From assembly GCA_025453925.1 (NCBI GenBank), contig JALOPK010000075.1, forward strand, positions 1-11,744: a stretch of 11,744 nt of DNA. Direction: 5' to 3'. The notes under the pieces were generated by a model. It ran no database searches, was not told the DNA's origin, and was given only the letters and a program-made list of their open reading frames with translations. The first letter of the stretch is position 1. Every line of letters starts with the position of its first letter. This DNA comes from Candidatus Eiseniibacteriota bacterium. Lineage in GTDB: Bacteria; JAFGKV01. A program made the translations under genes and the position numbers. Below are positions 105 to 11,744 of this stretch, piece after piece.

Positions 105-905
105 TCAGGAAAAGGCGCCCCACGCCTGGAGGCGACTCCGGATGAACTCGATGACGGCCTGGTGTTCGGACTTGCCTGTGCCCGTGATCGGCATGGGAGG
201 CCCGAAGGCCATGTGGAGTGGCTTCGTCCGATCGAACGGGCCGAAGTCCCGGAGGATCCTCCCGTTCCCCCAGGCATCGGTCTTCACCGCCGCAGGAATG
301 ACCGCGACGCCGCCCGCGCGTGCCAGCTTGATGCCCAGGGAGTTGAACTGCTCGGGGACGAACGCAATCCGGCGGGTTGCCTGCGGAAACACGATGACGG
401 AGACCCCTCGCGCCAGAAGCTCCCTGCCCCTGGTGAGCACTGCCTCCATGTCGCCCCGGGGGTCTTTCCGCGTCACGACGATGGGATCGCGTGAGCGCAT
501 CACTGGCCCGAAGATCGGATGGGTCACCAGACTGCGCTTCACCACGAACGTCACCGGACGGACGGGAGCGATGATGGAGGGGAGCAGTTGGGTTTCGGCG
601 GCACTCATGTGATTGCCGATGATGACGACCGGGCCTTGGGTCTTCCGCAGGTTGTCGATTCCGGACAGATGCAGCCGGCCCCCACACCGCTCGACCTGGC
701 GGAAGATCGCGAACGAGCTCGTGGCCCACTCGGTGTCATCGTAGCGATTTCGCACCGCCGTGTACCATGCACGGAAGACGACCCCGAAGTAGCGGAGGTA
801 GAGATTCCACCTCGTACCAAGAAGGCGATCGAGCACGTAGCGGGGCGTGTCCTCGGGCGTGTCGTAGGTGTCTTCAGGGAAGAACACGGGAAGGTTGCGA
901 TCCAT
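105..905 (-). CDS. PlsC-type 1-acylglycerol-phosphate acyltransferase family protein
   Basis: This is a 266-residue protein of the lysophospholipid acyltransferase (LPLAT/PlsC) superfamily, which moves an acyl chain onto a lysophospholipid or similar acceptor at the inner membrane. Seen: motif I is NHMSAAE (residues 98-104), with Glu where the classic H(X)4D has Asp. Motif III is FPQATRR (173-179), a variant of FPEGTRS. Motif IV is VIPAAVKTD (202-210). FNSLGIKLA (187-195) and KTDAWGNG are further block-like stretches that I recall from an uncharacterised PlsC subgroup. There is no clear long N-terminal membrane helix. Start: the ATG at 905 follows GGGAG by about 10 bases. An in-frame ATG at 947 would overlap the stop of the upstream RRM gene as ATGA and add 14 residues, but it has a poor ribosome site. 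The gene is probably co-transcribed with the RRM gene. The acyl acceptor cannot be told from sequence. Confidence 0.85.
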   Translation of the reverse strand: MDRNLPVFFPEDTYDTPEDTPRYVLDRLLGTRWNLYLRYFGVVFRAWYTAVRNRYDDTEWATSSFAIFRQVERCGGRLHLSGIDNLRKTQGPVVIIGNHMSAAETQLLPSIIAPVRPVTFVVKRSLVTHPIFGPVMRSRDPIVVTRKDPRGDMEAVLTRGRELLARGVSVIVFPQATRRIAFVPEQFNSLGIKLARAGGVAVIPAAVKTDAWGNGRILRDFGPFDRTKPLHMAFGPPMPITGTGKSEHQAVIEFIRSRLQAWGAFS

Positions 906-2360: not shown

Positions 2361-2495
2361 GCGCGGACCGCCCGAGAGCCCCGGGCTGAGCGCCCCTCCT
2401 CGAGACCCCTTTTCCCTGGGATCAGGCCGCACTTCGTCCATCACCCTTCTTCGTCTCTCTGGTTGCTCGCGTACACCACATTGAGAGGAGTCCTG

Positions 2496-5400
2496 ATGAG
2501 CCGCCGTTGTCTCTTCCTGGTACTCGTGGTGGTACTCTTGTGTTCGCCTTCGTGGGCGACCCTTCCTGACGACATCCATCTGATCCAGCCGTACCCCCGG
2601 GGGAAGGCGGATTCCGTTCTGGCGGCTCGCGAACGCCTTGTCTTCATCCCTGGCCCTGAGCTCTCCGCCTTGGAAGAGGCGGTCAAGGCCGGCACGCATG
2701 CGCCGCCGGCACCTCCCGTGCCGGGGACCGTATCCTCCGCGACACTCGAAGGCTCCGTGAGCGGCGACATCGCCCGGCTCTCCGCCACGTACATCGTGGA
2801 CGTATTCGAGGCCGGGGCGGTCTATGTCCCGCTGGTCGCCCGTTCCCTGCCCATCCTCTCGGTCCGCCAGGCCGGGATCCCCCTGAGGCTGACGGCCGGG
2901 GGGGCGTTCCCCACGCAATACGATTCGAGGCAGGAACCGGCCGGCGCATGGTGGGGAGTCGTCGTCCAGGGCTCGGGAAGGCGCCTCATCTCCGCATCCC
3001 TCCCCGTGCCAGTCGATCAGACCGACGACGGCGGTTCGCTCCAGGTGTCGCTGCCGACCGTCGGGGCATCGGTCATGACGTTGAGACTGCCCCCGGGGGA
3101 GTGGGACGTTGAGTCCGCCGGACCGGCGCTTCGACAAGGGCCCCGGGGCGAGAGCGTCGAGGTGCGGCCCGGCGTTGGCGGAACGATGAGCGTCGCATGG
3201 AGACAGGCCACCCGTCGCGTGGCGCGGCCGCGGGAAACCAGAGAGGTGACGCTGGAAGCGACCGGCGAGCATCTGGCGTCGGTGGGTGAAGCGGCGGTCA
3301 AAGGGCAGGTGCAGTTCAACCTCCGCGTGTGGACCGGCCAGGTTCAGATGCTGGACATCGTGAAGCCGGAAGGCGTAGAAGTGATGAACGTCAGCGGGCC
3401 CAGCGTTGACACCTGGGAGCAGAGCGAAGGAAGCATCCGCGTCTATCTGGCGTCCCCGGTGCAGGGAGAAGAGCGGCTGACGGTAGAGTATCTGCTCACC
3501 ATGTCCGGTCCCGAGGGCGCGATCACGCTGCCGCCCCTGGCGGTCTCAGGCGCCCGGCGACAGCTCATGCATTGGGCAGTGGTCGCCACCACCAACATCG
3601 AGGTTGAACTCGCCGAGTCACAGAGTGTCGAGGTGCTACAGCCGCGGGAACTCCCGGAAGGCCTGAAGGGGGTCGCCGCCGGCAGGATTCTGGTGGCGCT
3701 GCGGGGCGATCCAACCCAGGCGGTGGCGGTGCTGCGGGTGTCCCGGCATGCGGATGTGCCTGTCCTGGTGGCGTCGATCGATCAGGCTACGTTCACCACC
3801 GTCGTGTATCAGTCGGGACAGCAGGTCACCACCTGCCGCTACGACATGCGCAACACGACCAAGCAGTTCCTCGAGCTGGCGCTCCCGCAGGATGCCCAGC
3901 TCTGGGACGTCAGAGTTGATCGTCAGCCCGTCCGTCCCGGGCTTGTCGAGAGCACCGTGCTGGTGCCTCTGGCATCCTCGCTGGGAAGGTCGGAAGAGAC
4001 CTCCTTCCCGGTGGAAATCACGTATCTCGTGCCCATGCGGCTCTCCCCCTTCGCGGGCCGGCTCGTGGTACAGGGACCGAGGCCTGACCTGCCGGCCAGC
4101 CGTGTCACCTGGGATCTGCGGTATCCCGGGCGGCTGTGCCCGATACGCTGGGGCGGCAATATGGAGAGGGAGCCCTCTACCGGTTCGCGCCGGATGGGTC
4201 TTCCGTTGTCGGAACTGATGGTCCCCTCCGCGTCTGAGCCCAAGATGGAGCATGACATGGCGGGGCGAGATGACGATGTCTCGCAGCGCGCCGGAGAGGC
4301 CTGGAGCCGGAACGAAGAGCGGAAGAGCGGCGTGGATGAGAACCAACGAATGCGGCAGATGGCCCGGGACTACCTGCAGAAGGGGGCGTCGGCAAAAGCC
4401 ACCAGACGGAGCATCGGGAAGCCGTCAGTCGAGGTCTCCGCGCCGGCAGTCGGCAAAGGAGTTCGTTTCTCCCAGATTCTCCAGCAAGCGGAGGCGCCCG
4501 TCGTCCGCTGCATCTACGTCAGGGGCGGTGTGCGGTGGGATTACGTCGGACTCGTGGCGGTGGTGCTCCTCGGGGCGATGCTCGCCATGCGGTGGCGCCG
4601 GCGTCACGTCATCGCGGCCCTTGTGCTGATCGCGCTGGATGCGACGGCGGCGCCGACGCCTCGCGAAGTCCTCCGCATGGTGCCCAACGACGAGCTGGCT
4701 CGGCTCCTCACGGGGCCTACCTCCCAGGAGTATGCGTTCATACCCTACTCACGGATCAGCGCGCTCTTCACTGCGATCCGAACCGGGCAGCCGGTCTCGC
4801 TTCCTGCTGCCGTTTTCCTCGACAAGGTCGAACTCGCCCTGAGCGTCGAGGATGACGAGGCCCGCATCACCGGCACGGCCACGATGATGACCGCGGGGAG
4901 CGGATGGCGCGCCATTGACCTGGTGGGGGATGCTGCCCGCGTGAGCCGGGTCACGCTGGCAGGCAATCCTGCGGCCCTCTGGAGTTCGGACGCCGGCACC
5001 AGAGTGCTGACCGACGCTGAGGGCATGCAGCCGTTGGAGTTCGAGTATGCCACCGGCGTGACCATACAAGGCAACAGCCGCAGCGTTGCGTGCCCGGTGC
5101 CGCGTTCCCCCGGGTGCCTCATGACAATCACGTTGCCCCTGGGTTCATCCGGTCTCACGGTTGCCGGCCGACGGGTTGACCTGGAGACGGATGCGAAGGC
5201 GGCCACTGTGGTCGTTGCCATCCCCGGCCAGGTCAGCGTTCCCCTGTCGTGGCGCTACGTGCCCCCGGAGCTTGTGCTCCCCGCCGGCGCGCGTCCGGGC
5301 GAGGCAGGGCCTACACGTGGACGCCTGATGGCCGAGGCCCTGACCCTCTATTCGGTGGACGCGGGCGCCGTGGAGGGACGAACGAGGGTTACTGCGGATA

Positions 5401-6695
5401 TTGTGCAAGGGACCCGCGACAGCCTCGTTTTTCGCCTCCAACCAGGGCTGGAGGTGCTGGACGTTGCCTCGACCGCCGCGGAGGACTGGACCGTGGCGCG
5501 GGACGGAGGGCGTCGCCTCGTCGTCCTGCTCAAGAACGGAACCAAGGGTCGGGTCGTCCTGCACCTCACACACGAAGTCTCGCTGGCCGATTCGGTGGCC
5601 ACCGTCATCATCCGGGAGCCCGCCATTCTCGATGCGGTGCGATACCGAGGGCAGGCGGGCCTCCAGGTCCTCACCAGTGTACGGGTCACCCCCGTGTCCC
5701 ACACCGGGTCCACCCGGACCGACGTGCGGGACATCCCGCAGGACCTCTGGACCATGGCCTCCAACCCCATTCTGCTGGCGTATAAGCACATCGATCCCGC
5801 CTACGCCATCGAACTCCGTGTTGAGCAGCAGAAAGACATACCTCTTCTGACCGCCTCAGTGGATCGAGAGCAGCTTCTCTCGGTGGTCTCGTCATCCGGA
5901 CGGGTCGTCAGCCGCGCCCGTCTGCAGGTCAGGAACAGCGGGGAGCAGTTCCTGAAGGTGTTCCTCCCGGAGGACGCCCGGGTATGGAGCTATCAGGTCG
6001 GTGGCGTCACCGCAGCTCCCTCGCGGGGAGACGATGGAGGACTGCGGCTTCCCGTCCCGCCGTCGGAGGAGGAAGAAGGCGGTCTTCGCGCGGTGCTGGC
6101 GGAACTGGTGTGGAGCCAGGAGCTGGATTTGCGGCCGTACGGCGGTCGCGTGGCCATCACCGGTCCACGGGTGGAGATTCCCTGCTCGGTGGTCGAGTGG
6201 GAGGTGTATGTCCCGTCGCGCCGAACCTGGATCGTCACGTCGTCGAACCTGGACCACGCCTCGTGGCCCGAACCCTGGGTCCGGACTGAGACGACTTCGA
6301 ATGAGATCGGACTCATGGCGCAGATCAATGTCGCCGATGAGGCGCAGAACGCTCCGGCCGACGGGTGGGCCGCCGGCACCATGCCCGTGAAGGTGGACAT
6401 CCCATTGGAGGGCACCCGGCGCACATTCTCCCGGGCCATGCTCATCGGGCCGGCCCCTTCGGTTGAGATGCTGGCCATTCCCATCGTCCCGCGCGCCGCA
6501 ATCGTGACCGCGGTGGCGGTCATCGTTCTGTTGGTGTGGCGGATCTCGGGGCGAATGCGTGTCCGAGGATTCATCGTTCGCGTAGTGTTGACGGCGGCAG
6601 CGGCCTTCTTCGTAAACCGTCTGGTGGCGTTCGCGGCAGTCGCCGGGCTGGTGTGGCGGGCGCTGTCGGGGAGGAACCGGGGCGGCGGAGAATAG
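2496..6695 (+). CDS. Giant exported membrane-anchored protein with internal tandem duplication, function unknown
   Basis: This 1399-residue protein matches no named family I recognise. Start: the ATG at 2496 follows AGGAG by 5 bases and begins a clean signal peptide (1-21, cleavage after PSWA); an in-frame TTG at 2463 is rejected. Unit A (about 22-700) is beta-rich by eye and ends in a charged linker (about 590-660) and a hydrophobic segment (684-698) followed by RWRRRH. A second hydrophobic stretch (705-714) ending DATAA looks like a second signal peptide and opens unit B (about 720-1399). Unit B ends with hydrophobic segments near 1334-1350 and 1361-1387. The units repeat: residues 413-474 and 1107-1168 align without gaps with 26 of 62 identical, both containing QFL and W near the end. 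FIPGPELSAL (50-59) matches FIPYSRISAL (748-757), and GPRPDLP matches GPRVEIP. Most of the chain should be outside the inner membrane. It looks like a scaffold or surface protein, but this is a guess. Confidence 0.9.
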   Translation: MSRRCLFLVLVVVLLCSPSWATLPDDIHLIQPYPRGKADSVLAARERLVFIPGPELSALEEAVKAGTHAPPAPPVPGTVSSATLEGSVSGDIARLSATYIVDVFEAGAVYVPLVARSLPILSVRQAGIPLRLTAGGAFPTQYDSRQEPAGAWWGVVVQGSGRRLISASLPVPVDQTDDGGSLQVSLPTVGASVMTLRLPPGEWDVESAGPALRQGPRGESVEVRPGVGGTMSVAWRQATRRVARPRETREVTLEATGEHLASVGEAAVKGQVQFNLRVWTGQVQMLDIVKPEGVEVMNVSGPSVDTWEQSEGSIRVYLASPVQGEERLTVEYLLTMSGPEGAITLPPLAVSGARRQLMHWAVVATTNIEVELAESQSVEVLQPRELPEGLKGVAAGRILVALRGDPTQAVAVLRVSRHADVPVLVASIDQATFTTVVYQSGQQVTTCRYDMRNTTKQFLELALPQDAQLWDVRVDRQPVRPGLVESTVLVPLASSLGRSEETSFPVEITYLVPMRLSPFAGRLVVQGPRPDLPASRVTWDLRYPGRLCPIRWGGNMEREPSTGSRRMGLPLSELMVPSASEPKMEHDMAGRDDDVSQRAGEAWSRNEERKSGVDENQRMRQMARDYLQKGASAKATRRSIGKPSVEVSAPAVGKGVRFSQILQQAEAPVVRCIYVRGGVRWDYVGLVAVVLLGAMLAMRWRRRHVIAALVLIALDATAAPTPREVLRMVPNDELARLLTGPTSQEYAFIPYSRISALFTAIRTGQPVSLPAAVFLDKVELALSVEDDEARITGTATMMTAGSGWRAIDLVGDAARVSRVTLAGNPAALWSSDAGTRVLTDAEGMQPLEFEYATGVTIQGNSRSVACPVPRSPGCLMTITLPLGSSGLTVAGRRVDLETDAKAATVVVAIPGQVSVPLSWRYVPPELVLPAGARPGEAGPTRGRLMAEALTLYSVDAGAVEGRTRVTADIVQGTRDSLVFRLQPGLEVLDVASTAAEDWTVARDGGRRLVVLLKNGTKGRVVLHLTHEVSLADSVATVIIREPAILDAVRYRGQAGLQVLTSVRVTPVSHTGSTRTDVRDIPQDLWTMASNPILLAYKHIDPAYAIELRVEQQKDIPLLTASVDREQLLSVVSSSGRVVSRARLQVRNSGEQFLKVFLPEDARVWSYQVGGVTAAPSRGDDGGLRLPVPPSEEEEGGLRAVLAELVWSQELDLRPYGGRVAITGPRVEIPCSVVEWEVYVPSRRTWIVTSSNLDHASWPEPWVRTETTSNEIGLMAQINVADEAQNAPADGWAAGTMPVKVDIPLEGTRRTFSRAMLIGPAPSVEMLAIPIVPRAAIVTAVAVIVLLVWRISGRMRVRGFIVRVVLTAAAAFFVNRLVAFAAVAGLVWRALSGRNRGGGE

Positions 6696-6764
6696 CCGAA
6701 TCGGTGTTCCGCGCGTTGGGCAGCATGCTGTTCGCGCGGATCACGTGACGGCGCAACCGGTGGT

Positions 6765-6785
6765 GGCTCGCTCCCCGTGCGAGCC
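6765..6785. terminator. Hairpin in the convergent intergenic region (first)
   Basis: GGCTCG (6765-6770) pairs with CGAGCC (6780-6785) across a 9-base loop. It lies between the ends of the giant gene and the sensor kinase gene, where both transcripts should stop. No T-run follows on either strand, so a terminator role is only suggested by position. Confidence 0.25.
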
Positions 6786-6803
6786 CCTGGATAGGTGGGG
6801 AAA

Positions 6804-6824
6804 GCGGAGAGCGCAATCCTCCGC
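6804..6824. terminator. Hairpin in the convergent intergenic region (second)
   Basis: GCGGAG (6804-6809) pairs with CTCCGC (6819-6824) across a 9-base loop. It has the same 6-9-6 geometry as the hairpin at 6765-6785, 18 bases after it. There is no T-run. It may help end the convergent transcripts. Confidence 0.22.
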
Positions 6825-6876
6825 CCGAGCCGGCCGGCGCCGGGTGATGAGTTGTCGATCCCCGAGGGGACTGCCG

Positions 6877-8241
6877 CTACGGGTTCTCCAGGCGATCGGT
6901 GACCTGCTTCGCCAGCGGGAGCGTCACGGTAAACGTGGTGCCCTCACCTTCCGCGCTTTCGACTTCGATCCGCCCGCCATGCAGCTCCACGATGCGCTTT
7001 GATATCGCCAAACCCATGCCCGTTCCCTCCGGCACCATCTGCCGGGCATTGGATGCTCGGAAGAACTCGTCGAAGACATGCGGCAGCTTATCTGTGGGGA
7101 TTCCGATTCCCGTGTCACGGACCTGCAGCACGAGGGAATGGCCGTGGATCACCCCGATCACCCATATCTTACCGCCCGAGGGAGTGTAGCGGATGGCGTT
7201 GCTGATGAGGTTGGTAACGAGTTCGCGGAGGTCCTCCCGATTCCCGTCAACCATGGCAGGCACCACCGATACCTGGAGCGTGAGGCCCTTCTCCTCCGCT
7301 CCCTGCATGAGCAACTGGGCGTTGTTGCCCACCACATCGCACATCGGCACGGGCTCACGCCGTTGCGGAGCGCCCTCCACCTCCAGCCGCGCCAGCATGA
7401 GAAGATCGCCGACCAGACCAAGGAGCCCCTCGGCTCTCCGGTCAATGCGGGCGAGCGTGTTGTGCTGTTGAGGCGTGAGCACGCCCATCAGGCCCTGGAG
7501 GAGTACCTGCAGGAGACTCCGTATTGCGCTCAAGGGAGCGCGGAGTTCGTGGCTCACCTTCCGCACATAGAAAGCGCGCGTCTCGTGAAGTTCCTTGAGT
7601 TGGCGATACGCCGCTTCGAGTTCACGCTCCCTTCGCCGTAGCGTGCTCGCCACGGAGCCGCCCACGATGATCAACAGGTACAAGGTCACGGTCAGCGTGA
7701 ATGTCGTCTGGAACACGTAGAGCTTGCTTTGGTAGAGCGTGGGATCACCCACCGTCGGGAGATGCACATGGGGGAGTACTCCCGCCCGCTCGCCCCAGCA
7801 AATCCCGTTGACCAACACGGCGGCCAGCGTGGCATGCCAGGTGACAAACCGCCGCTGCAGCAGCGGCAGGGCATAGACGATGGGGAAGATGATGAACACC
7901 ATGAACGGGTTCTCGATCCCGCCCGTCAGATGCACGAGGGCAGCGACCGCGAGGATGTCGACCGCCACCTGTGCGTTGGCGACTGTCTTGATGATCGAGG
8001 CGGTGATGGCTTCCCTGGCATGGAGATTGGCCACGAAGAGGGCGAAGATGGCGTTATAGAACGGCACCCCGAGCGCGACGAGGGCCGTGGCGGGAAGGGG
8101 AAATCGAACGTCGAACCGGTACCACGCCACCAAAAGCGCGAAGAGCGTGGCGATGCCGGCACACCAACGGAACCGTACGGACCAGGTCAGCCGATGGTAA
8201 AGCTCTTCCTCGGCAAGAATGAGATCATGGCCCTGGTTCAC
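6877..8241 (-). CDS. Six-TM sensor histidine kinase with RegB-type quinone-binding motif
   Basis: This is a 454-residue membrane sensor kinase. Seen: about six hydrophobic segments (roughly 25-40, 50-73, 88-105, 111-127, 132-148, 176-199), then a short helical linker, then HisKA with the phosphorylated His231 in KVSHELRAPLSAI. The HATPase domain has the N box NLISNAIRY (344-352), G1 DTGIGIP (376-382), the F box FDEFF (390-394) and G2 GTGMGL (406-411), all intact. GGIENPF (107-113) lies between the third and fourth segments, the same place and pattern as the GGxxNPF heptapeptide through which RegB/PrrB senses ubiquinone. No Cys is present near the H box, so the redox Cys of RegB is missing. 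Start: GTG at 8241, with AGGG just upstream. It begins 7 bases after the stop of the hydrogenase maturation protease, so it is the last gene of that operon. No response regulator is in the window. The natural inference is redox control of the hydrogenase genes. Confidence 0.95.
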   Translation of the reverse strand: MNQGHDLILAEEELYHRLTWSVRFRWCAGIATLFALLVAWYRFDVRFPLPATALVALGVPFYNAIFALFVANLHAREAITASIIKTVANAQVAVDILAVAALVHLTGGIENPFMVFIIFPIVYALPLLQRRFVTWHATLAAVLVNGICWGERAGVLPHVHLPTVGDPTLYQSKLYVFQTTFTLTVTLYLLIIVGGSVASTLRRRERELEAAYRQLKELHETRAFYVRKVSHELRAPLSAIRSLLQVLLQGLMGVLTPQQHNTLARIDRRAEGLLGLVGDLLMLARLEVEGAPQRREPVPMCDVVGNNAQLLMQGAEEKGLTLQVSVVPAMVDGNREDLRELVTNLISNAIRYTPSGGKIWVIGVIHGHSLVLQVRDTGIGIPTDKLPHVFDEFFRASNARQMVPEGTGMGLAISKRIVELHGGRIEVESAEGEGTTFTVTLPLAKQVTDRLENP

Positions 8242-8248
8242 GTACCCT

Positions 8249-8734
8249 TCACCCTTCGCGCTTTCCCGGATAGCGCAGCCTGAAGAACGCTGCCAGCTCC
8301 TCGACCGCTCTCCTGACGTCGGGGTGGAGGGGGGCTCCCCGCGTCAGTCCCCCCACCTGGATGGCAAGCAGGAATACCTGCGCGGCGGCCAATACCTCGA
8401 TCTGCTGCATGAGAAGCTCCATCGGAAACCCGTGACTCCCGCCTCCCCAGTCGGTCACCGACGACCGGTCGAGGACGCGCACTTCGCCGGGCTGGAGCCC
8501 CAGTTCGGCGGCATCCACGAGCATGACGACTTCGGGGCGGTCGCGGGAAATGACACCGAGGAAGTTCTGGGGGTATGACCCACAGTCAAGGAGGGTGAGG
8601 TTCGTGGTCGTGTCGAGCAGATCGATCAGGGAAAGGGCAGCGGCATCATCTCCCGCCGTTCGGTCACCAAGGGCCGCGAGGACGACGCGCCCGTGAAGCC
8701 TCTGGGCGAGATCCTCTTCCCAGCCTACCCCCAC
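8249..8734 (-). CDS. hycI: HycI-like [NiFe] hydrogenase maturation endopeptidase
   Basis: This 161-residue cytoplasmic protease trims the C-terminal tail of the [NiFe] hydrogenase large subunit once nickel is in place. Seen: the family start block LGDRTAGDD (22-30; HycI has GNSMMGDD) with metal ligand Asp30, then DCGSYPQN (50-57; HycI has DGGSAPEN). The second ligand is Asp74 in VDAAELGLQPGE, very close to HycI VDATDMGLNPGE. The third is His101 in SHGFPMELLMQQI. Then come a HycI-like LLAIQ stretch and a basic C-terminus. All three nickel-sensing ligands are kept. The resemblance is closer to HycI (group 4, formate-hydrogenlyase type) than to HyaD/HybD. Start: the GTG at 8734 overlaps the stop of the ferredoxin gene by 10 bases; GGGGAG lies very close (2 bases), so translational coupling is likely. 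Its presence implies that a hydrogenase large subunit is encoded nearby, outside the window. Confidence 0.9.
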   Translation of the reverse strand: MGVGWEEDLAQRLHGRVVLAALGDRTAGDDAAALSLIDLLDTTTNLTLLDCGSYPQNFLGVISRDRPEVVMLVDAAELGLQPGEVRVLDRSSVTDWGGGSHGFPMELLMQQIEVLAAAQVFLLAIQVGGLTRGAPLHPDVRRAVEELAAFFRLRYPGKREG

Positions 8735-9336
8735 AACTCCCCGACCACCGTTGACCGGCGGCAGTGCGCGCAGATCACACGTACGCTGTTCGGCCTGAGC
8801 GCAGGATCCGAGGCGTCGGTGGTTGCCTCAGCAACGATCCCCAGAGTGCCGTCTGACACGAGGGCGAGCGTTGGATTGGCAAAACGCTTGGTGCCGAGCC
8901 TGTCGGCAGTCCAGAGAATATGGTCCCGCGGTGCGATGATTGCGCCGCAGCCCTCGCAAAGAACAAGCTGCTTCTCAATCGACGAGAAGAGTGAACTCCG
9001 ATCTAGCGTTGCAAGGTCATACTCGCTGGAGTTGCGGATCCCGGTCTTCGTCGTGCAGTTCAGTTCGCAGTGCCCGCAGAAGATGCAGACATCATAGTGA
9101 ACCGTGAAGCGGCGAACCGGCGGCGAGCATGTGATGTCATCCGCCATGTCGATAGCCTTGGCCGGGCACACCTGCGCGCATGCACCACAGCCGATGCACG
9201 TCTTCTCATCGTAGTAGGGCGTTCCACGATAGCCCTCGATGATCTCAGCAGGCTTCGCAGGGAAGGCCACCGTGACGGGGCGGGACACGAGAGACTTGAT
9301 GGCCTCGCCCAGTTCTCGAACCTTCGGGCTCCGCAC
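8725..9336 (-). CDS. hycF: HycF/HyfH-like ferredoxin subunit of a group 4 hydrogenase
   Basis: This 203-residue electron-transfer subunit, NuoI-related, would pass electrons between the ferredoxin or donor side and the hydrogenase small subunit on the cytoplasmic face. Seen: two [4Fe-4S] motifs. The first is Cys47, 50, 53, 57 (CIGCGACAQVCP). The second is Cys84, 87, 90, 94 (CIFCGHCELNC), followed by Thr rather than the usual Pro. After these comes SEYDLATL, close to SQEYELAV of E. coli HycF. A C-terminal module has two pairs, Cys127/130 and Cys189/192, as HycF does; it may bind zinc. CIFCGxCE is shared with HycF. Start: the GTG at 9336 lies 2 bases after the mrpG stop and is preceded by AGGAG at 8 bases. 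The frame stays open far upstream, but that extension is antisense-like sequence over mrpG coding DNA. It overlaps hycI by 10 bases. Against a plain NuoI: the HycF-type tail and the adjoining HycI. Confidence 0.9.
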   Translation of the reverse strand: MRSPKVRELGEAIKSLVSRPVTVAFPAKPAEIIEGYRGTPYYDEKTCIGCGACAQVCPAKAIDMADDITCSPPVRRFTVHYDVCIFCGHCELNCTTKTGIRNSSEYDLATLDRSSLFSSIEKQLVLCEGCGAIIAPRDHILWTADRLGTKRFANPTLALVSDGTLGIVAEATTDASDPALRPNSVRVICAHCRRSTVVGELWG

Positions 9337-9338
9337 GG

Positions 9339-9683
9339 CTATCGCTCCTCGGGCTTTGTGGTTGCGACGTCGCGATACGCATCCACGACGCTGCCCTCCC
9401 ACATCTTCACGCCCGACTTGTAGGCGCCTCGGACTATGGCATGCGCGCCGACAGGGGACGTAAAGAGAATGAAGAGCATGCAGAGAACTGCCTTCATTCC
9501 GAGGGCGGATACCCCGAACTGCGTCGCCACGCCGAAGAGAATGAGACAGGTTCCCAGCGTCACGCATTTGGTGGCGGCCTGTGCACGGTTGTAGACATCG
9601 GGAAGACGTACAAGGCCAATGCATCCAAGAAGATCGAACAAGAGGCCCACCGTGATGAGGACCTTGGGAAGCAGGCTAGTCAT
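9339..9683 (-). CDS. mrpG: Mrp/Mnh antiporter subunit G (or hydrogenase MbhC-type subunit)
   Basis: This 114-residue small membrane protein of the Mrp complex has three hydrophobic segments (about 6-26, 38-58, 63-82). Mrp exchanges sodium for protons. In energy-converting hydrogenases such as archaeal Mbh, homologues couple H2 evolution to an ion gradient. Seen: the family signature GLVRLPDVYNRAQAATK (23-39), followed by TLG. Most MrpG proteins have RLHAATK there; here Gln35 replaces the conserved His. Start: the ATG at 9683 follows GGAGGG and overlaps the mrpF stop by 8 bases. An upstream in-frame extension to 9752 lies inside mrpF and is rejected. The stop is 2 bases before the HycF-like start. 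Confidence 0.94.
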   Translation of the reverse strand: MTSLLPKVLITVGLLFDLLGCIGLVRLPDVYNRAQAATKCVTLGTCLILFGVATQFGVSALGMKAVLCMLFILFTSPVGAHAIVRGAYKSGVKMWEGSVVDAYRDVATTKPEER

Positions 9684-9942
9684 CAAAGGTCCGGCCCTCC
9701 AGATGCTTGGCCAGTGCGATAGTCCCGATGAAGCTGACCAACGCCCAGGCAATGGCGATGTTCATGAGATAGTCCAGGCCCGTAGCAAGGCACAGCATGC
9801 AACAGAATCCGACCACGAGCGTGCCGAGGATGTCGATGGCAACGGCCCGGTCCGGGGGTGTCGGGCCTCGCCCGATGCGGAACAGGCAGAGTGTCGCGCT
9901 TGCCAGGAGCATTCCGATGCCGAACGAGAAGAAGCCACTCAC
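9676..9942 (-). CDS. mrpF: Mrp/Mnh antiporter subunit F (or MbhB-type subunit)
   Basis: This 88-residue protein has three membrane segments (about 5-22, 33-52, 60-78), the normal length for MrpF. The family signature GPTPPDRAVAIDIL (26-39) is intact, including the Asp-Arg pair and the second Asp in the membrane that is important in MrpF ion transport. Start: the GTG at 9942 has GGAGG 8 bases upstream, and the mrpE stop overlaps it as GTGA. The end overlaps the mrpG start by 8 bases, so E, F and G are translationally coupled. Confidence 0.93.
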   Translation of the reverse strand: MSGFFSFGIGMLLASATLCLFRIGRGPTPPDRAVAIDILGTLVVGFCCMLCLATGLDYLMNIAIAWALVSFIGTIALAKHLEGRTFDD

Positions 9943-10424
9943 CTGAAGATCCTCCGCAAGATGCGCTCGAAGTGAGAGACTATGGTTCCGGTCTGCTCTT
10001 CCGGGTCCATCGTCGTGACGTTGATCCAGTGGATGTAGAGGTCGTCGCCGACGATGTCGACGCTCAGGGTCCCGGGTGTCAGCGTGATGGAGTTGGCGAG
10101 CGCGAGCTTACCGATATCGCCCCTCAAGGTCGTTTTCACTTTCACGATGCCCGGGCGTATCGGCATATCGGGATGAATCACGCGATAGGCCACGTCGAGA
10201 TTCGCACGAACCATGAAGTAGAGGAAATAGGGAACATACACCGCTAACCAGAACAAGCGCTTCGGGTCGAACACGGCTTGGGGATGCTCGGGGTAGATAT
10301 CGCCCAGTATGACCGCAATGACGATGCTGATGAACACTCCGGCCGCGATATCGGAAGGCGTGAGCGACCACGTGAGCGCAAGCCAGAGGAGGAAGGTCAG
10401 CACGCACGACAGGAGTTGTTTCAT
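9939..10424 (-). CDS. mrpE: Mrp/Mnh antiporter subunit E (or MbhA-type subunit)
   Basis: This 161-residue protein is typical of MrpE in length. Seen: two or three N-terminal membrane segments (about 3-20, 22-40, 60-75), then a cytoplasmic domain with the family hallmark NSITLTPGT, followed by a beta strand and IHWINV. Start: the ATG at 10424 has GGGAGG 6 bases upstream and overlaps the mrpD stop as ATGA. An in-frame extension to 10544 lies inside mrpD and is rejected. The stop shares GTGA with mrpF. The order D-E-F-G is the standard Mrp order. Confidence 0.95.
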   Translation of the reverse strand: MKQLLSCVLTFLLWLALTWSLTPSDIAAGVFISIVIAVILGDIYPEHPQAVFDPKRLFWLAVYVPYFLYFMVRANLDVAYRVIHPDMPIRPGIVKVKTTLRGDIGKLALANSITLTPGTLSVDIVGDDLYIHWINVTTMDPEEQTGTIVSHFERILRRIFR

Positions 10425-11744
10425 GGCAGACCTCCCGGTGCAAACAGCGCCGCGTACCCTGAAGCCTGGGCCAGCAGACTGGCGGCGGCCGGGTCCAGCA
10501 GCCACCCTCGCAGCCACACCACCAGCGGGCCGCCTACCGTGCACACTGCGGCGAGGAACAGCATGGCCGCGCGCATGGCGTAGGGGGCCTCAAGCACTCG
10601 TCCTACGAGGTGCTCCGGCACCTCTCCCTCCAGGGCCGCGCGTTGCACCTTGAGGAAGGAAACCAAGGTCATCATGGCCACAAAGACGGCAAGGGCGGCC
10701 AGGAGCCACTGCCCAGCCAGGGCTAACCCGACCACGATGATGAGCTTCGAGAAGAACCCGTTGAAGGGTGGGACCCCTGCGATGCTGAGGGCACCGATTC
10801 GGCAACAGAAGCTGGTGACCGGCATGCAATGGCGCATGCCACCCAAGTTCTTGAGCATGCGAGTGCCGGCCTGCTGCTCCAGCGACCCAGAGGAGAGAAA
10901 CAGGAGGCTCTTGAACGCGGCATGGTTGAACAAGTGGAAGAGGCCACCGAACAGGAGCAGTCCCGCGAGGGCCGGGTCGCCGTTTCCCCGCGGCGACATG
11001 ACGTGGGCTGCGGCACCGATGGCGAGCACGATGTACCCCATCTGGGAAATGCTGTGGTACCCGAGCAAACGTTTGAAATCCCACTGGCCGACCGCGAGGA
11101 AGACCCCGACGACCATCGAAAGGGCTCCGAGAATGATGAGCACATTGGCGTAGCTGGCGGAGGGGCCGAGGACGTTGAACACAATCCGCGTCATAGCATA
11201 GATCCCGCTCGCCTTGATGAGTACTCCCGACAGCATTGCCGAGATCGGCGCCGGCGCCGAAGGATGGGCATCCGGGAGCCATGCGTGAAACGGCACCAGC
11301 GCAGCCTTGAGCCCGAAGCCCATGAGGAAGAACGCAGCCGCCAGGGTGGCCGCGCGATTCGACCCCATCCCTTGAAGTGATTTGGCTACCTGAGCCATGT
11401 TCAGCTGGCCGGTCAGGTTGTAGAGCACTCCGATGCCCAAGAGGATGAACAGCGAGCTCACTGACCCCAGGATCAGGTACTTGAAGCTGGCCTCCAGTTC
11501 CTCATGCTCGGTGCCGAAGGCGACCAGCCCGTACGACGAAATCGCGGCCACCTCGAGGAACACGTAGACGTTGAAGAGGTCGCCGGAGACGATCACCCCG
11601 TTCATGCCCGCCACCATGAGCATGAGCATTGAATAGTAGAGCCCCACTGACGTGAATCTGCGCATGTAGTCCAGGCTGAACACCAGTGATGCCAACGTCA
11701 CGAGGTTCGTCGTGAGCAACATGAGCCGCGTCATCCCGTCCACT
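10421..11744 (-). CDS. mrpD: Mrp subunit D-type proton-translocating antiporter, 5' end missing
   Basis: This is the C-terminal 440 residues of a large multi-TM antiporter of the MrpD/NuoL-M-N family (MbhH in Mbh hydrogenase). The frame runs off the window at 11744. Family members are about 490-530 residues, so some 60-90 are missing; the GTG at 11743 is not taken as the start. Seen, numbered from 11743: GDLFNVYVFLEVAAISSYG with the key membrane Glu64; Lys88 in ASFKYL; GLKAALVPFHAWLPDAH with Lys146 and His153; Lys177 in LIKASGIY; HSISQMGY; and NHAAFKSLLFLSSGSL. These are the charged residues of the membrane proton path and all are kept. The stop overlaps mrpE as ATGA. Whether it serves a free-standing Mrp antiporter or a hydrogenase complex depends on genes beyond the edge; the HycF and HycI genes downstream favour the second. 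Confidence 0.93.
   Translation of the reverse strand, partial: VDGMTRLMLLTTNLVTLASLVFSLDYMRRFTSVGLYYSMLMLMVAGMNGVIVSGDLFNVYVFLEVAAISSYGLVAFGTEHEELEASFKYLILGSVSSLFILLGIGVLYNLTGQLNMAQVAKSLQGMGSNRAATLAAAFFLMGFGLKAALVPFHAWLPDAHPSAPAPISAMLSGVLIKASGIYAMTRIVFNVLGPSASYANVLIILGALSMVVGVFLAVGQWDFKRLLGYHSISQMGYIVLAIGAAAHVMSPRGNGDPALAGLLLFGGLFHLFNHAAFKSLLFLSSGSLEQQAGTRMLKNLGGMRHCMPVTSFCCRIGALSIAGVPPFNGFFSKLIIVVGLALAGQWLLAALAVFVAMMTLVSFLKVQRAALEGEVPEHLVGRVLEAPYAMRAAMLFLAAVCTVGGPLVVWLRGWLLDPAAASLLAQASGYAALFAPGGLP

Follow-up and report, generated by a model that had tools for sequence, protein, structure and literature searches.

A predicted membrane sensor kinase of a broad RegB/PilS-like family encoded at the end of an Mrp-linked group 4 [NiFe]-hydrogenase operon

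The sensor kinase RegB senses ubiquinone through the heptapeptide GGXXNPF, and RegB/RegA has been reported to regulate hydrogen utilisation (PMC8191878). For the group 2b hydrogenases HupUV/HoxBC with HupT/HoxJ, as well as for group C1, a kinase is genetically linked to a regulatory hydrogenase (PMC5037454). The locus described here shares with the latter systems a hydrogenase-linked kinase gene. The roles differ, however: in those systems H2 is sensed by the hydrogenase itself, while the hydrogenase partner at our locus is catalytic and ion-pump-linked, and the membrane sensor is carried by the kinase. At the level of titles and abstracts, our literature search returned nothing relevant on a kinase within energy-converting hydrogenase clusters.

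We analysed one whole contig of 11,744 bases (G000:C471; the window). Here, the sensor histidine kinase gene covers positions 6877..8241 of the minus strand, i.e., it reads from a GTG start codon at 8241 down to 6877 and encodes 454 aa with a sensor domain, HisKA and HATPase_c. The genes upstream are co-oriented, touch or overlap each other, and show Pfam matches to HycI, then Fer4, MnhG, MrpF, MNHE and Proton_antipo_M. They encode, all on the minus strand, a HycI-type hydrogenase maturation protease (8249..8734; PF01750, E=3.4e-12; TIGR00142, E=6e-21; PDB HycI matches), an MbhN/HyfH-like two-[4Fe-4S] ferredoxin subunit (8725..9336; the longest ORF reaches 9624, the start at about 9336 was judged by the L201 operon), the subunits MrpG (9339..9683; PF03334, E=2.5e-25; longest ORF to 9752), MrpF (9676..9942; PF04066, E=3.1e-16) and MrpE (9939..10424; PF01899, E=2e-41; longest ORF to 10544), and an MrpD-type antiporter subunit (10421..11743; PF00361, E=3.9e-62) whose 5' end is cut off by the contig end. 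The HycI-like stop at 8249 is separated from the kinase by a 7-nt spacer (...GAAGGGTGA-AGGGTAC-GTG...). On re-reading, the kinase coordinates, the position of its GGIENPF motif (residues 107-113) and this spacing were all found as given in the initial annotation. Since the gene downstream is convergent, the kinase is also, as proposed there, the last gene of the hydrogenase/Mrp string. A scan of 6600-9000 showed neither a sigma-70-like promoter nor a terminator, which is weak evidence; the kinase is presumably cotranscribed with the operon.

The remaining operon of the window genome lies on other contigs; G000:C421 (L073) encodes the large and the small subunit, and both motifs RxCGxCxxxH and DPCxxC are present in this large subunit. 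A complete operon is found in the congener (G001, contig JAFGKV010000193.1, L031/L042), which was deposited as Candidatus Fermentibacteria. Its first part consists of Fer4_22, an FAD/NAD subunit, a 550-aa protein, Fer4_11, an NADHdh-type MbhM, the small subunit, a 30-kDa subunit and the large subunit, followed by MrpA-like, MbhD/E, MrpB, a further small ORF, MrpD, E, F and G, MbhN, HycI and the kinase. The congener's large subunit carries RVCGICSASH and DPCYSCTER, i.e., both Ni-binding Cys pairs, and continues beyond DPCYSCTER in a C-terminal tail as expected for a HycI substrate; the nearest PDB match of the large subunit is P. furiosus MbhL (E = 9.4e-80). The genes for the Mrp antiporter subunits, the MbhN ferredoxin and the HycI protease lie together in one string. 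Judged by sequence, the enzyme is an Mrp-linked group 4 [NiFe]-hydrogenase. It shares with the described Mbh/Mrp-linked group 4 enzymes (HydDB 4b/4d/4g) the MbhL-like large subunit, MbhD/E, Mrp B and D-G, MbhN and HycI, while it differs in the extra Fer4_22 and FAD/NAD subunits, which are common to most of its relatives, and in the terminal kinase. The 550-aa protein (L042:8395-10047, plus strand) has an N-terminal CLFCSLQC and no Pfam match at 1e-5. It is possibly a molybdopterin-oxidoreductase/NuoG-like subunit, and relatives of it occur in some other operons (L208, L211, L212, L220-L222).

The kinase combines a RegB/PilS-like multi-TM sensor (residues ~10-212) with HisKA (226-287, including H231) and HATPase_c (334-444). 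Its core motifs are all present, i.e., the H-box at H231 (VSHELRAPL), N-box at 344, G1 at 376, F-box at 390 and G2 at 406, and the transmitter scores best with PnpS/PhoR models. Hydropathy gives five clear TM segments (27-45, 53-71, 87-105, 109-127, 183-201), and the sixth window (237-255) is the DHp helix. The Pfam model 6TM_PilS (PF25323) matches residues 54-150 with E = 1.1e-8 and 35.4 bits, which passes its gathering score of 27. AlphaFold helices span 3-43, 49-75, 81-106, 113-123, 130-152 and 167-232, in a model that was built from three sequences, has a pLDDT of ~50 or below over most of the membrane part and is too poor for a fold search. The six membrane segments of the initial annotation are thus plausible but not proven, i.e., likely from the 6TM_PilS family, though only five are clear by hydropathy and the model is weak there. 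The GGIENPF codons (7903..7923, minus strand) encode a loop past the third TM helix, placed at 107-112 in the AlphaFold model. Because the motif stands at the homologous position in the 6TM family alignment, it is no chance match. The window kinase shares the matching TM domain with PilS-type 6TM kinases, but its locus is hydrogenase-linked and has no pilus genes.

The kinase had been called RegB-like, and we compared it with the ActS/PrrB/RegB model NF033792. This description holds for the sensor domain: the N-terminus matches the model as a distant relative (E = 1.4e-13), and GGIENPF aligns with the RegB motif between TM3 and TM4 of the family alignment. On the other hand, the full-length protein reaches 78.5 bits, below the cut-off of 350 bits that is passed in 12/31 Alphaproteobacteria genomes. 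All 11 aligned alphaproteobacterial RegBs have a redox-box cysteine (RC[RK][ED]IL or near) and an H-box of the AAAxHELGTPL type; in this alignment, the window kinase has no such cysteine past its H-box and shows VSHELRAPL instead of AAAHELGTPL. The window kinase has no response regulator gene as a neighbour, and no match exceeds the cut-off of NF033791 (RegA/PrrA/ActR) in the window genome or in the congener, both genomes being incomplete. In the tree, the RegBs lie on one side of a 100/99 branch and the window kinase on the other, i.e., the phylogeny places it outside the RegB clade. RegB membership was thus rejected on five tests, namely score, H-box, redox-box Cys, adjacent RegA and phylogeny. 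Compared to RegB/PrrB/ActS/RoxS, the multi-TM sensor domain of the window kinase is homologous and carries GGxxNPF at the equivalent alignment position, while the kinase forms part of a separate clade and its gene is located inside the enzyme operon. From these comparisons, its sensor domain is homologous to the ActS/PrrB/RegB membrane domain within a broad RegB/PilS-like family, without the kinase being a RegB proper.

The order ...MrpG-MbhN-HycI-kinase is kept in five operons: the window, the congener (L031), a Planctomycetota genome (VGYT01000036.1, L032), and L200 and L201 from two other families, different from each other. The latter two were found by searching 386 genomes from the whole domain with the large subunit, after which 40 loci were fetched. 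Kinase identity to the window is 71-72% in the congener and 41% in the Planctomycetota genome, where the gene has the same position. The HycI-kinase junction varies from the 7-nt spacer of the window over spacers of 2-3 nt (L200/L201) to an overlap of 1 nt (L031) or 4 nt (L032, unless its start is ~50 nt later). A chance adjacency of kinase and HycI was rejected given this conservation. The gene association put forward in the initial annotation is genuine and conserved, with hydrogenase linkage clearly present in relatives, while its interpretation was over-specific.

Among about two dozen fetched group 4 loci with a visible HycI, only 2 have a 6TM kinase behind it. Since most related group 4 operons do without this kinase, it is not needed for the enzyme, and we rejected the idea that hydrogenases of this type always include it. 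The position behind HycI is held by a soluble kinase in L209 and by a receiver in L222. On the large-subunit tree, the presence of a kinase after HycI requires two state changes, which fall in two supported clades, and within either clade the kinase thus remains coupled to the hydrogenase; the two changes are consistent with two gains of a kinase at one position. In the sensor-domain tree, the two groups of group 4-linked kinases lie apart, with a single clade not rejected (p-AU 0.127). One sensor-domain match was found genome-wide in each of G000, G001 and G056, and every one of them is the hydrogenase-linked kinase.

Our preferred reading, to which we assign a probability of roughly 55%, is that a dedicated membrane kinase is made with the Mrp-linked group 4 hydrogenase, reads the redox or energy condition of the membrane and tunes the hydrogenase via a regulator encoded elsewhere. 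Here, the sensor domain would read a redox/energy condition in or at the membrane that is set by the co-encoded complex. The kinase would autophosphorylate at H231 and pass the phosphoryl group to an unlinked response regulator, which would in turn adjust hydrogenase output or expression. The signal would not need to be quinone. What the sequences show is the anatomy of the gene, its homology, its place in the operon, the conserved linkage and the intact kinase motifs. We infer the signal, the regulator that receives it, the genes under control and whether this control is positive or negative, and the membrane-redox feedback on the hydrogenase is likewise a putative one. The reading builds on the gene order common to the five operons, the complete upstream operon of the congener, the hydrogenase tree, the sensor-domain match to NF033792 and the related kinases at other energy operons described below. 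Against it stand the lack of the kinase in most related operons, the missing response regulator neighbour and RegA match, and the low confidence of the membrane model. If the reading is true, the operon of an energy-converting hydrogenase would in some bacteria also contain the gene for its regulator. Feedback would then act directly on a complex that is central to energy conservation in fermentation.

A wider reading, tentative and on the unlikely side, is that a class of hydrogenase-embedded kinases was recruited several times to the tails of energy-converting operons, where they would use a RegB-like membrane domain to read, independently of quinone, the state of the ion-pumping complex or that of its electron carriers; the GGxxNPF fold would then respond to something broader than quinones. 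Related kinases also occur at other energy operons. In Planctomycetota, L146, L148, L151 and L156 show the group 3 hydrogenase order small subunit, large subunit, protease, receiver, kinase, and L149 and L155 are similar. The 6TM kinase of these six sulfhydrogenase-like loci has GGIESP[VLMA], not GGxxNPF, and is mostly preceded by a receiver-only protein. A related kinase is located upstream of a group 4 operon in L153 and behind HdrA/MetF-like genes in L138. At L145:8591-12152 (minus strand), an Nqr/Rnf-like operon has behind it the genes for a receiver-only protein and then a GGVENPF kinase, i.e., a further ion-pumping redox complex has a similar sensor at its end. As the sampling of related kinases began from kinase similarity, these counts are not frequencies.

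A serious alternative to our preferred reading, although we consider it unlikely, is that the kinase is a regulatory accessory subunit that senses the hydrogenase/Mrp complex itself by contact within the membrane, the stimulus being the redox state of the complex, H2, reduced ferredoxin or the ion gradient. The tight position behind HycI in five operons would fit such contact, as would the recurrence beside membrane ion-pumping complexes (group 4 hydrogenase, Nqr/Rnf-like), while the occurrence of related kinases behind group 3 (sulfhydrogenase-like) enzymes argues against it. Hydrogenases of this group are usually soluble.

We regard it as improbable that the kinase is a functional RegB, such that GGIENPF binds membrane quinone and the redox state of the pool sets kinase activity and hydrogenase expression. 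The homologous sensor domain with the exact heptapeptide and the ubiquinone sensing described for RegB (PMC8191878) speak for it, as does a MenA-like protein of the UbiA family in the congener (L190; 94 bits vs. a cut-off of 102) with a similar protein in G002 (L189). However, the three genomes of the window's family (G000, G001 and G002, with a completeness of 82%, 94% and 98%), which cover the window genus and a related one, show no match at E <= 0.001 to MqnA/MqnD (PF02621) or MenD (TIGR00173), the families covered besides MenA, and the window kinase has neither the redox-box Cys nor the HELGTPL H-box. The MenA-like prenyltransferase is thus seen in G001 and G002 although MenD and MqnA/MqnD were not found there. 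An MqnA/D-family match is present in the Planctomycetota genome. Going by these genes, a quinone pool in the window lineage appears unlikely, and quinone sensing by the window kinase is doubtful.

This also concerns the motif itself, which the initial annotation had taken as evidence of quinone sensing. GGxxNPF is found in 31/57 sampled non-RegB 6TM kinases and is not kept in other hydrogenase-linked kinases, where the position reads GGVENHF or GGIESPV/L/M/A; the motif therefore appears to be a weak marker of quinone sensing. The motif argument is weakened by this, and the suspicion that the kinase falls in a family where GGxxNPF is frequent with no quinone binding known is partly borne out. 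With the motif common outside RegB, and in a lineage without a detected menaquinone pathway, its use as a quinone-sensing marker is open to question: either GGxxNPF has a different ligand, or this lineage possesses a quinone that has gone unrecognised.

Similarly improbable is a passenger, i.e., a general sensor kinase that came by chance to lie at the end of the operon and simply shares its transcript. In its favour, most related operons lack the kinase, and the Planctomycetota paralog in L137 has no recognisable hydrogenase genes nearby. Against it stand the two hydrogenase-tree clades with a kinase at the identical position, two further operons in which this position is taken by a soluble kinase (L209) or a receiver (L222), and the joint presence of kinase and hydrogenase in both the window genus and the Planctomycetota genome.

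The window lineage is represented among the comparison genomes by one congener and one further family member, the rest being reported as no closer than the same domain, and it looks deep and poorly sampled. Convergent with the kinase, the window encodes a 1410-aa ORF (2463-6695, plus strand) without a Pfam or NCBIfam match. In the congener, a 1577-aa counterpart of this ORF is found at the corresponding place (L031:11388-16121, minus strand).
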